A DNA stretch of 64,000 nt from Tildeniella torsiva UHER 1998/13D (GCA_019358835.1 JAHHIH010000019.1:1-64000), one strand, 5' to 3'; positions 51,920 through 55,650 are shown, numbered from the stretch's first letter. Notes: generated by a model not told the origin, from the letters alone. Translations and numbers: made by a program.

Positions 51920-52057
51920 ATGGAAGTCGCAATGCTGCTGGCCAAACTGCCCGAGGCCTACTCCCTGTTCGACCCCCTGGTAGACGTTCTGCCCATCATC
52001 CCCGTATTTTTCCTGCTACTGGCCTTCGTGTGGCAGGCTTCCGTCGGTTTCAAATAA
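51920..52057 (+). CDS. psbK: Photosystem II reaction centre protein K
   Basis: A 45-residue protein starting [14 protein letters not shown]. The mature part [20 protein letters not shown], a single membrane helix and the ending [10 protein letters not shown] are highly conserved. The first eight residues are removed after insertion. PsbK is a small subunit of photosystem II near CP43 that helps stabilise the core and plastoquinone. GAGAGGA lies about ten bases upstream. It follows tgt by 112 bases and ends in a clear terminator. Confidence 0.97.
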
Positions 52058-52084
52058 CCCTTTTACATTCTTAATATAGAGTTA

Positions 52085-52117
52085 AGCCCCGGCGTTACTA
52101 ACGCTGGGGCTTTGTTT
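52085..52117 (+). terminator. Rho-independent terminator after psbK
   Basis: Arms AGCCCCGGCGTTA and TAACGCTGGGGCT pair with one G-U and a very short loop. TTTGTTT follows. It lies 27 bases after the psbK stop. Confidence 0.9.
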
Positions 52118-52305: not shown

Positions 52306-53397
52306 ATGGTCGAAAATCTTGACTTAGGCAACAGTTTTAGGCTTTCGATCAAGGCCCTAGAGTCTGAGGCAGACCCGAGGGTTACCCACGCTGGGGTGCA
52401 GGCACTCTGTAGCCACATTACCCAGTTGAGCAATCTTGAACAGACCAAGTTTGCTTTTCTTCCCAATCCTCAGTACAGCATCTTGGCTGAGGCCACGGCC
52501 TACCCGAGAGTGGTCGAACCTAGCCTATATGCTGGACTTCAGTGCGAGATCCCGCTTAATAAACTCAGAGTAGTTTTGCGGTGCGTGGGCAACTGGCTAG
52601 AGCGCACCGCCCACAAAACCCTTTTTGTCTTAGAAATTCCGCCCAGCCACACCATTACGCTCCAGACCAACCAGGCTAAGGCGCTGGCTCAACTGCTCAC
52701 CCTAGGCGAAGCCCTGTTGCCGCCCCACGAGTTCTATCGCACCCAGGCTGAGGGCTATATAGGTACATTTGGTGAGTTAACTCCGGCGGCTAAGGCCAAT
52801 TTAAGCCTAGTCCAACAGCGGGTTGGGCTATCAACCGAGGAGGCCAGCGAACTCAACGCCACCGCCATGGGGCCATTCAGAACCCTGGCCGAGAAATATC
52901 AGCACTTTCGCCGAGAACTGCTGGCGTGCAAGCAAGTCAGCGATCTCGATGAGGCTTTTTGGAAGGTGATGCGGGCCAAGGCTGTCACCATGGGTTTGCC
53001 CGAGGCCGATGCTCAGTTTCTCAAAGACGAGCGTCTGAAGACTCTCCGCCAGGAGGCCGAGCAGACGCAGCTGCAGGCCGAAGCCAAGGCCGCCGCCGAG
53101 GCTCAGCGGCAGCGCGAGCAGCAGGAGCGATCGCTGGGCTACCGCCACCAGTTTGAAGCAATGGTCATTGACTCGCTGACGCCCCAGGGCAGTGCCCAAG
53201 AGCATAGTGAGCCAGCAGACGATCAACCAGAGGCGGCACGGTTTCGCCAGAGTGTGATGGCCAACCTGGCTAGATCCGATTTTAATCGGGGCCGCCTGAC
53301 CCAGGCGCGAGAATACTATAACCTCAACCCGCAAGAGGCCGAAGCCCTGGAGAAAACCGTTTTAGATGAGCTGTATTTATTATCTGACTTACTATAG
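52306..53397 (+). CDS. Uncharacterised helical scaffold protein, paralogue of the GUN4 protein downstream
   Basis: A 363-residue soluble protein of unknown function. Residues about 1-140 form an alpha-beta segment ending in the strand pair TLFVLEIPPSHTITLQTNQ. A helical domain follows (GELTPAAKANLSLVQQRVGLSTEEASELNA, about 165-195), then a Glu/Gln/Ala-rich coiled coil (245-280). A last domain has FNRGRLTQAREYYNLNPQEAEALEKTVLDELY. Each part has a match in the same order in the 521-residue protein next door, so the genes look like a tandem duplication; this copy has no GUN4 domain. ATG 52306. Confidence 0.75.
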   Translation: MVENLDLGNSFRLSIKALESEADPRVTHAGVQALCSHITQLSNLEQTKFAFLPNPQYSILAEATAYPRVVEPSLYAGLQCEIPLNKLRVVLRCVGNWLERTAHKTLFVLEIPPSHTITLQTNQAKALAQLLTLGEALLPPHEFYRTQAEGYIGTFGELTPAAKANLSLVQQRVGLSTEEASELNATAMGPFRTLAEKYQHFRRELLACKQVSDLDEAFWKVMRAKAVTMGLPEADAQFLKDERLKTLRQEAEQTQLQAEAKAAAEAQRQREQQERSLGYRHQFEAMVIDSLTPQGSAQEHSEPADDQPEAARFRQSVMANLARSDFNRGRLTQAREYYNLNPQEAEALEKTVLDELYLLSDLL

Positions 53398-53456
53398 GTT
53401 GCAGGGAATGAGCCGTTGGCTAAAGCCTAATCTTGGTGCGTCTGTGAGGTGTTGGC

Positions 53457-55022
53457 TTGGCGCAAAACATTGCATGTTTGATCAAGGTTGTCGAACCTCA
53501 GCTCAAGCAAGATGAGCTAGACACTGAGGTTCGCTACTTAATTGACGACCTGCGCGATCTCGATGGCATGGGCCAAACTCGCTTTGACCCCATTTTAGAA
53601 AACAGAGCTGCGGCCCAGGTCAGAGTAGGCACTAGGTTTATTGCCCATTCAGATCTGCTGGTCTCTATTCTGAGACGGTTGCGCGATCGCCTCTACTACA
53701 AGCCCCTCGAAACCTGGTTTCTCTTCCAAATTTCAGATCTCAATCTGCAAATTCAAACCGATCGGGCCGATGACCTCATAGACCTGATGGCCACCGCCCA
53801 AAGCGGGCTGCTGTTCTCCCCAGAGCGCGACTATCTGGCCGAAGCCGAAACCTACAGCCGCACCCAGGGCGAACTCTCCCCCACCGAACTCGACAATCTC
53901 AATCTGCTGCGCCAGCGCTTGAGCCTCTCGGCAGAACAGGCTGACCTGCTCAATGCCAGAGTCGTTGGCCCCTATAAAACCCAGGCCGAAAAGCACCGCC
54001 ATTTTGACGAGACCGCTGCCGCAGAGTTTAATCGTCTGCGCCAGATGGATGCAGACCAGCCCTTTGCCTCCAAAGACCCTTGGCCCGTGCTGCAAGAACT
54101 AGCTGAAAACTTAGCCCTGCCGATTCCTGAGGCCGAGGCCATCTACCAAAAGCACTGGCAGCGCTACAGTGACGAGGCGAAACTCAAAACCGAGCAGCAG
54201 ACTGTCAAAACCGCCGAAGAGGCTCGCTTAGCCACTGAAACTAAGGCCGAGGGCGATCGCCAAAAGCAGGCCCAGCAAGCCCGAGAGCACCTAGAGCAAT
54301 ACCTAGCGCTCTGTCGCCAGACCATGGCTAGCAGCCTGTACCCCTCCGAGTTTGACCAGGGCCGCCTCGATCAGGCCCGCCGACTGCAGAATATTTCCAT
54401 TAATGAGGCGCTTACCTTGGAGGCGACCGTACGCAACGAGCTGTATGGCAGCATTGAGTCTGCTGCTGGAGTTGACTACAGCCGCCTGCGCGAACTGCTG
54501 CACCAGCAGGCCTGGCAAGAGGCCGACATGGAAACTGAAGCCGTCATCCTCAAAGCCCTCGATCGCGACATGCAGCCCGTCACCGCTACCACCGTACAGC
54601 GGCTGCCCGCCGTTGATTTAGCCACCATTGATGCCCTCTGGAGCCGCTATAGCAACAAGCGCTTTGGGTTTAAAGCTCAGCAGCAGGTGCACCGGGGCCA
54701 GCAGCAAGTGCAGCAGGACGATCGCCAACAGTGGTTGGCCTTTCAGCAGGCGCTGGGCTGGCGCGAGCTCCCCTCGCTGTTTTACAAAGGCTATCGGCCC
54801 TACCATGACCTCAATTTCAGCATCGAAGCGCCCGTGGGCCACCTGCCAACCTGGCGCTGGTGCTGCCCGAGTCTGAGCGATCGCTACCGCCTGAGCCTGG
54901 ATGTCATGGCGGCTGTGATCCACCATCTGAACGAATGTATGCCCATAACCACGGCGGCAACGCCAGCCGTTGACCCCGCTGCCCCAACTGTGATTACCGG
55001 AGGGCCAACCCGTGCTGTCTAA
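53457..55022 (+). CDS. GUN4-domain protein with helical scaffold
   Basis: A 521-residue protein with a TTG start. Residues 1-115 are alpha-beta. A helical domain is at 125-240 (LSPTELDNLNLLRQRLSLSAEQADLLNA), and a coiled coil at 240-280. A repeat-like helix pair is at 297-330 (FDQGRLDQARRLQNISINEALTLEATV). GUN4 spans about 340-480: YSRLRELLHQQAWQEADMETEAVILKAL, then LATIDALWSRYSNKRFGFKAQQQV and the tryptophan-containing GHLPTWRW. GUN4 binds protoporphyrin and Mg-protoporphyrin and stimulates Mg-chelatase. Fused GUN4 proteins in cyanobacteria are mostly of unknown role. The next gene overlaps its end by 11 bases. Confidence 0.85.
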   Translation: MAQNIACLIKVVEPQLKQDELDTEVRYLIDDLRDLDGMGQTRFDPILENRAAAQVRVGTRFIAHSDLLVSILRRLRDRLYYKPLETWFLFQISDLNLQIQTDRADDLIDLMATAQSGLLFSPERDYLAEAETYSRTQGELSPTELDNLNLLRQRLSLSAEQADLLNARVVGPYKTQAEKHRHFDETAAAEFNRLRQMDADQPFASKDPWPVLQELAENLALPIPEAEAIYQKHWQRYSDEAKLKTEQQTVKTAEEARLATETKAEGDRQKQAQQAREHLEQYLALCRQTMASSLYPSEFDQGRLDQARRLQNISINEALTLEATVRNELYGSIESAAGVDYSRLRELLHQQAWQEADMETEAVILKALDRDMQPVTATTVQRLPAVDLATIDALWSRYSNKRFGFKAQQQVHRGQQQVQQDDRQQWLAFQQALGWRELPSLFYKGYRPYHDLNFSIEAPVGHLPTWRWCCPSLSDRYRLSLDVMAAVIHHLNECMPITTAATPAVDPAAPTVITGGPTRAV

Positions 55023-55650
55023 CACCTCTAACAGCCCCGCCTTTCACAGCAGTTTAGAAGAGAGCCTGGGCGAACTCAGCCTGCTGCTCGACGAACAAGA
55101 CTGGGAAGAGGCCGATCGGCTGACGGCAGACTTGCTGCTCGATGCGGTGGTGCAGAACTACAGCGGTGAAACAGGGCTGTCGCCAGAGACTGAGCCACAC
55201 CATCGACCTCATCTGACTACCGAAGCCCTGGCCGCGTTGCCCTGCCAGCTGCTGCACGCTATTGACGATCGCTGGCAGAGAGCTAGCGGCGGGCATTTTG
55301 GCTTTTCGGCCCAGCTTCAGATCTATGCCGCCACTCTGGAAACCATCGACTTTGACCCGGCCCTACGCAACTGGTCTACCCCCCATCCCTTTTTTGAAGA
55401 AGTGGGGTGGCTGATGCTGTTTCCCCTGCGGCCCATAGGGTTTTTGCGGTTTTACACCTGGCTAGACTTTGACCTAGAAGCCCCCAGGGGGCACCTACCC
55501 GCCCTGTGGTACTGGCGGGTGCCGCGCATCGCCTCGCTGCAAATGGGTGGCCTGTTGACCGGCCAGGGAGGAGCCTTTGGCGATCTGGCCCGCCTCGACG
55601 CCATGATGCTGCGGCTGTCGCGCTGCCACCATCTCGGCGGTCGGAGGTAG
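55012..55650 (+). CDS. GUN4-like protein
   Basis: A 212-residue protein with a GTG start overlapping the previous gene by 11 bases. Residues 19-50 (LGELSLLLDEQDWEEADRLTADLLLDAV) are the GUN4 opening helices. Then come LPCQLLHAIDDRWQRASGGHFGFSAQLQIY and EAPRGHLPALWYWRVP near 160-175. It lacks the scaffold domains and carries an insertion of about 20 residues near 50-70 (GLSPETEPHHRPHLTTEA). The aromatic pocket residues are partly kept, so tetrapyrrole binding is possible but not shown. Confidence 0.8.
   Translation: MLSNTSNSPAFHSSLEESLGELSLLLDEQDWEEADRLTADLLLDAVVQNYSGETGLSPETEPHHRPHLTTEALAALPCQLLHAIDDRWQRASGGHFGFSAQLQIYAATLETIDFDPALRNWSTPHPFFEEVGWLMLFPLRPIGFLRFYTWLDFDLEAPRGHLPALWYWRVPRIASLQMGGLLTGQGGAFGDLARLDAMMLRLSRCHHLGGRR

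Follow-up and report, generated by a model that had tools for sequence, protein, structure and literature searches.

What is encoded by a cluster of three genes in which one multidomain scaffold occurs twice and a GUN4 domain occurs twice, and from what kind of system does it derive? The question is raised by positions 52,306 to 55,650 of a 64,000-nucleotide stretch of DNA from Tildeniella torsiva UHER 1998/13D (GCA_019358835.1, JAHHIH010000019.1:1-64000), referred to below as the window, where the genes that we call A, B and C follow one another on the same strand. On balance we favor the reading that A-B-C is a vertically inherited signaling operon, derived from a cyanobacterial layout that pairs an EACC1-like gene with an orthocaspase gene and from which the protease has been lost. 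The coordinates, the protein sizes and the 11-base overlap of B and C reported in a first-pass annotation all proved correct when open reading frames (ORFs) and sequence were inspected, and the features are as follows.

52306-53397, + strand: gene A, ATG start, 363 residues, with EACC1-like N-terminal domain, GEL(S/T)P helical domain, coiled coil and C-terminal helix pair (ORF, homology to B)
53457-55022, + strand: gene B, TTG start, 521 residues, with EACC1-like domain, GEL(S/T)P helical domain, coiled coil, helix pair and GUN4 (ORF, Pfam, model)
53457-53801, + strand: EACC1-like domain of B, residues 1-115, predicted ferredoxin-like fold b-a-b-b-a-b-b-a (hhalign and two independent models)
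53817-54056, + strand: GEL(S/T)P helical domain of B, residues 121-200 (profile search, Pfam of host proteins)
54123-54323, + strand: long helix or coiled coil of B, residues 223-289 (DSSP, predicted model)
54348-54446, + strand: C-terminal helix pair of B, residues 298-330, with the motif YPSEFDxGRLxQAR (alignment and model)
54459-54854, + strand: GUN4 domain of B, residues 335-466, LxNxLR replaced by TWRWCC (Pfam, fold match)
55012-55650, + strand: gene C, GTG start, 212 residues, second GUN4-type protein, motif replaced by ALWYWR (Pfam)
55012-55022, + strand: B/C overlap of 11 bases (sequence)

Proteins A and B share 96 of 291 aligned residues (33%) in a blastp alignment with E 5e-29 that spans A90-357 and B71-330, and their N-terminal parts, which blastp aligned only partly, match in a profile-profile comparison at 98.7% (E 3e-16), so that the duplicated scaffold described earlier stands and A and B are, as judged from these alignments, true paralogues. 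The N-terminal segment of A is the longer and more divergent of the two. A predicted structure of B (mean pLDDT, the predicted local distance difference test, 83; predicted template modeling score 0.50, so that the relative placement of domains is unsure), with helix and strand limits taken from DSSP, reproduces the order of domains that had been described from the sequence: an alpha/beta domain (1-115), helical hairpins (122-218), a long helix of 67 residues (223-289), a helix pair (298-310 and 315-330) and then GUN4. That the helical hairpins of the GEL(S/T)P, middle and C-terminal regions are copies of one repeat is not supported, with hhalign probabilities of 16-22% at best. Pfam GUN4 (PF05419, curated cut-off 29.2 bits) matches B at 335-466 (E 4.6e-28, 98.6 bits) and C at 16-172 (E 1.5e-19, 70.9 bits), and no Pfam domain, GUN4 included, matches A, in agreement with the assignment of GUN4 to B and C and not to A. 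No caspase or other catalytic domain was recognised in any of the three proteins. The ratios of nonsynonymous to synonymous substitution rates (dN/dS) are 0.10-0.30 over the three genes (0.17-0.28 for A and 0.13-0.19 for B), and all of them are under purifying selection; given this and the presence of A-B-C in other genomes, the cluster is not a chance pattern of ORFs. The TTG start of B has an in-frame stop three codons upstream and is kept in nearly all A-containing relatives. The overlap of B and C, retained in the closest relatives and replaced by a short gap in others, may reflect translational coupling.

The origin of the shared N-terminal half is indicated by its relatives in 386 cyanobacterial genomes from 143 genera. 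A profile of the N-terminal halves of A and B finds full-length relatives only in the family of the window organism; outside the family it finds two things separately, namely the GEL(S/T)P part within large proteins (a helical domain that also belongs to multidomain proteins of caspase and kinase type) and the initial ∼120 residues as an independent ORF of 127-170 residues. When these standalone proteins were in turn used as a profile, matches were obtained in 41 of the genomes and 27 of the genera. Once loci that had been fetched twice were dropped, a caspase gene lies directly 3' of 40 of the 41 distinct standalone copies, and of 28 of the 29 that were found by profile only. The partner proteins begin with the caspase, usually continue with GEL(S/T)P and finish with a variable end of FGE-sulfatase, periplasmic-binding or GUN4 type. 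One such pair is found in the window organism itself (contig C9:55834-58239; 5835-8240 in our extract L110), where an EACC1-like ORF of 143 residues is followed 10 bases on by a caspase-GEL(S/T)P-GUN4 protein of 656 residues with a hydrophobic segment ahead of GUN4.

The N-terminal profile of B matches the standalone family with hhalign probabilities of 96.9-97.2% (E 1.8e-10 to 3.1e-11), as compared with 0.1% for an unrelated alignment used as a negative control. The same order of elements, b-a-b-b-a-b-b-a, emerges from two independent predicted structures, E4-11, H18-33, E44-50, E53-64, H65-81, E86-92, E95-101 and H104-115 in B, and E5-12, H19-35, E42-47, E61-71, H72-85, E91-97, E100-106 and H109-124 in a standalone protein (L115). 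A glycine-rich hydrophobic stretch, LGGFLxGLL, is present in the standalone proteins and missing from A and B. Fold searches with the N-terminal domain returned generic ferredoxin-like matches only (PII-like and designed proteins, Cas6f/Csy4; Z at most 9.2 for B and 7.9 for the standalone protein), from which we infer no function. A single chain in B holds three parts: the small domain, which at other loci is encoded by a 5' gene of its own; the GEL(S/T)P linker, found at those loci behind the caspase; and GUN4. Cyanobacterial orthocaspase-GUN4 proteins, such as that on contig C9 and the cbMC-beta proteins with GUN4 (PMC2853523), resemble B in the succession of GEL(S/T)P, coiled coil and GUN4, and differ from it in having a caspase and in leaving the EACC1-like domain to a separate 5' gene; no B protein has a caspase, and all complete ones are 494-552 residues long and hence too short to hold it.

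How close is this domain to EACC1 itself? In the EACC1 systems a small constant 5' gene is followed by a 3' caspase (or cyclase) gene with a variable end, and they have been described from actinobacteria and, sporadically, proteobacteria (PMC7159879). The Pfam family EACC1 (PF19953, curated cut-off 23.6 bits) matches 14 of 37 standalone proteins (best E 1.5e-4), the next family having 4 matches, with all of the matches whose scores were seen lying under the cut-off (21.1 bits for L115). It has no match in A or B, nor in four actinobacterial plasmids. Remote homology to EACC1 is therefore found by profile via the standalone family, and the link is indirect, leading from B to that family by profile and from the family to PF19953 by sub-cut-off matches and gene context. 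Even so it is firmer than the 'weak' resemblance to EACC1 first suggested for the N-terminal segment, with 97% to a caspase-linked family of which 14 of 37 members match PF19953. The single transmembrane helix with a patch of small residues that characterises EACC1 is absent from A and B, in which no 19-residue stretch is strongly hydrophobic (best ∼1.3 on the Kyte-Doolittle scale), and no caspase or cyclase gene follows them, the neighbors in the window being A, B, C, a cation efflux protein and dps. The window proteins share with EACC1 two-gene caspase systems a small alpha+beta constant domain tied to a signaling or effector module whose C-terminal domain is variable, and a remote sequence relation through the standalone family; they differ in that the domain is fused to its partner in one chain, has neither caspase nor transmembrane segment and scores below the cut-off. 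A and B are best read, from these comparisons, as EACC1-like by descent and not as formal members of EACC1.

Two further observations concern EACC1-like domains elsewhere. In the model of L115 the glycine-rich stretch (residues 57-71) is a strand of a soluble ferredoxin-like fold and not a membrane helix, and whether the helix reported for actinobacterial EACC1 is truly transmembrane deserves a check in the light of this model. On a plasmid of Nostoc sp. UHCC 0926 (NZ_CP117771.1, 4001-4330; L126) a 1174-residue 'SAV_2336 N-terminal domain-related' protein, encoded directly after a MoxR ATPase gene, has an EACC1-like domain at its C terminus, which links this domain with MoxR-vWA conflict systems.

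The distribution of the three genes bears on how they were inherited. Full-length B is present in 44 of 65 genomes of the family and C in exactly those 44, with 21 lacking both; C is the next gene 3' of B, in the same orientation, whenever one contig holds both, and in three assemblies the two are on separate contigs. Gene A is confined to 20 genomes of the window's genus (Nodosilinea-group), in which it always lies directly 5' of B. Within that genus B-C is present in 27 of 28 genomes and A in 20; in six genomes with B there is no A at that position, in another (G026) the locus is split between contigs, and both A and B are missing from the remaining genome (G016, 83% complete). B-C without A is also present in at least six other genera. 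To the question whether the three genes always occur together, the answer is that B and C do so (44 of 44) and that A stands beside B wherever it is present; A is dispensable, since both the six genomes and the other genera have B-C alone, and the minimal unit is therefore B-C rather than three genes.

In trees A and B form one clade each, A joining inside the genus part (98/96); neither A as sister to the B of A-bearing genomes (p 0.19 in the approximately unbiased test) nor a duplication at the base of the genus is rejected, and A probably arose by tandem duplication with loss of GUN4. The GUN4 domains of B and C likewise fall into separate clades (98/98 and 87/95), within which the sequences group by genus, the pattern to be expected if the two genes were inherited together. 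Where the contig is long enough, the surroundings in the A-bearing clade are fixed apart from minor local variation (tgt, psbK, A-B-C, cation efflux, dps, sigma factor); in genomes lacking A, B-C is located elsewhere, amid unrelated genes. A-B-C is inherited vertically.

What might B and C bind? GUN4 had been said normally to work alone, a statement that does not hold in view of the eight GUN4 domains in this genome and of the multidomain GUN4 proteins common in cyanobacteria, in which fusions to caspases, kinases and parts of conflict systems are known (PMC7159879, PMC2853523). The best of the eight is encoded on contig C30 (216 bits, as against 102.5 for B and 68.8 for C) and has an intact motif, LPLSNQLR, where the bilin motif LxNxLR is defined as in PMC10156173. 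The corresponding site reads LPTWRWCC in B and LPALWYWR in C, so that Asn211, which is essential to bilin binding by GUN4 and absent from its paralogues (PMC10156173), is lost in both and a bilin ligand is unlikely for either. With the motif lost and the canonical GUN4 elsewhere in the genome, neither domain is, on this evidence from sequence, the Mg-chelatase cofactor. The GUN4 domain of B does superimpose, as a predicted model, on the Thermosynechococcus GUN4 structure (Z 20.2, root-mean-square deviation 1.7 over 147 residues), and B and C have the fold of the cofactor (Synechocystis sll0558; PDB 1y6i, 4xkc, 7e2t), but lack its N-terminal helical domain as well as the bilin motif. Paralogues such as sll1380 (PMC10156173) have, like B and C, lost Asn211 and the bilin-motif residues; here, by contrast, one paralogue carries an EACC1-like scaffold in the same chain and has a second paralogue as its obligate partner. 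Cys78 and Cys205 of C are invariant in 22 of 22 aligned orthologues and Cys494 of B nearly so, and a role of these cysteines in ligand binding or redox chemistry is possible.

If our reading is correct, assembly would be the task of the coiled coil and of the EACC1-like domain with its ferredoxin fold, and the GUN4 domains of B and C would work in partnership to sense or hold a ligand of porphyrin rather than bilin type. A may join or tune the assembly through the shared domains without sensing, as a ligand-blind modulator. With no catalytic domain in A, B or C, the output would have to come about by protein contact with a target encoded at another locus. In a bolder version, B-C would have evolved out of a caspase cell-death circuit into a two-subunit switch that lacks a protease, is gated by a tetrapyrrole and has been put to housekeeping use in controlling the status of pigments or photosystems, with A as its ligand-blind regulator; the sensor of the death circuit would have been retained and its executioner given up. 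As a whole this version seems to us improbable. In the literature that we searched, neither an EACC1-like family from cyanobacteria nor a caspase-free protein of EACC1-like/GUN4 type with a second GUN4 as its partner is described. The results join two literatures, that on GUN4 paralogues of unknown function and that on EACC1-type caspase systems, so far from actinobacteria and proteobacteria, and they indicate that cyanobacteria have a large class of EACC1-like/orthocaspase/GEL(S/T)P/variable-domain systems. As a naturally protease-free and obligately paired module, B-C allows the sensing half of the circuit to be studied alone, and should its GUN4 domains bind porphyrin, the proposal that GUN4 reports photosynthetic status to orthocaspase circuits becomes directly testable.

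Several points weigh against the origin that we propose. The N-terminal domain of A alone matches the standalone family weakly (10.8%), PF19953 finds nothing at 1e-3 in the 386 cyanobacterial genomes, and the grouping of the GUN4 domain of B with caspase-linked GUN4 has weak support (90/66). Evolution may also have run in the reverse direction, rather than from split to fused with loss of the caspase, and both complex formation and ligand binding by A-B-C, the two parts of the tetrapyrrole-sensing complex first suggested, are assumptions.

A simpler account, unlikely in our estimate yet deserving serious consideration, is that B and C are an ordinary pair of GUN4 paralogues, porphyrin carriers or modulators of Mg-chelatase or ferrochelatase, with the N-terminal half of B (and A) a mere scaffold for localisation or oligomerisation. 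The well-kept fold (Z 20), the tighter constraint on GUN4 (dN/dS 0.05-0.19) than on any other part of B, the fixed housekeeping neighborhood beside psbK and a canonical cofactor in the same genome are all consistent with it. However, the LxNxLR of GUN4 orthologues is absent from both proteins, and the shared N-terminal half is also under purifying selection and has components of caspase gene pairs as its relatives.

Could A-B-C instead be an anti-phage or abortive conflict module, a caspase-free branch of the EACC1/MoxR-vWA network in which B-C is the sensor and the effector is shared with other loci? The EACC1-like domain itself, its recurrence in the MoxR-linked vWA-type protein of the Nostoc plasmid and the listing of GUN4 among cyanobacterial conflict-system domains by Kaur et al. 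(PMC7159879) would fit, but inheritance is vertical and there is no effector domain, and most A-bearing genomes have no mobile elements or defence genes alongside. The single chromosomal site in A-bearing genomes and the low dN/dS make a defence role less likely still. A PADLOC match of B and C to PD-T4-6 was rejected as evidence of defence, as it covers only the GUN4 part of the kinase model. No MoxR ATPase or vWA genes, as in the VMAP or MoxR-vWA ternary system, were recognised among the neighbors examined on either side, those in other genera having been inspected by eye only. We regard a conflict role as quite improbable.

Least credible, and very doubtful in our view, is that A is a dominant-negative or decoy regulator of the cell's own EACC1-like/caspase-GUN4 pair (contig C9) with B-C as sensing arm, for while the same domain types occur in the same cell and A has no ligand domain, a standalone EACC1-like copy is detectable in only 10 of the 28 genus genomes as against 27 for B-C and 20 for A. 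An obligate dependence of B-C on the caspase pair was rejected on the same count, most genomes with B-C having no detectable standalone copy.

Upstream of the cluster that we read as a protease-free signaling operon, tgt and psbK precede A in almost every A-bearing genome that was examined, and in the window two features occupy the interval between tgt and gene A.

51920-52057: psbK, 45 residues, between tgt and gene A (translation)
52084-52112, + strand: strong terminator-like hairpin after psbK, 13-pair stem with T-rich tail, setting A-B-C apart from the tgt-psbK side

One relative has an inserted ORF on the opposite strand (L057, 7046-7990, - strand), TIR-domain-like by eye (FLSYRRRDSQAITRSIHSKL), between psbK and gene A.

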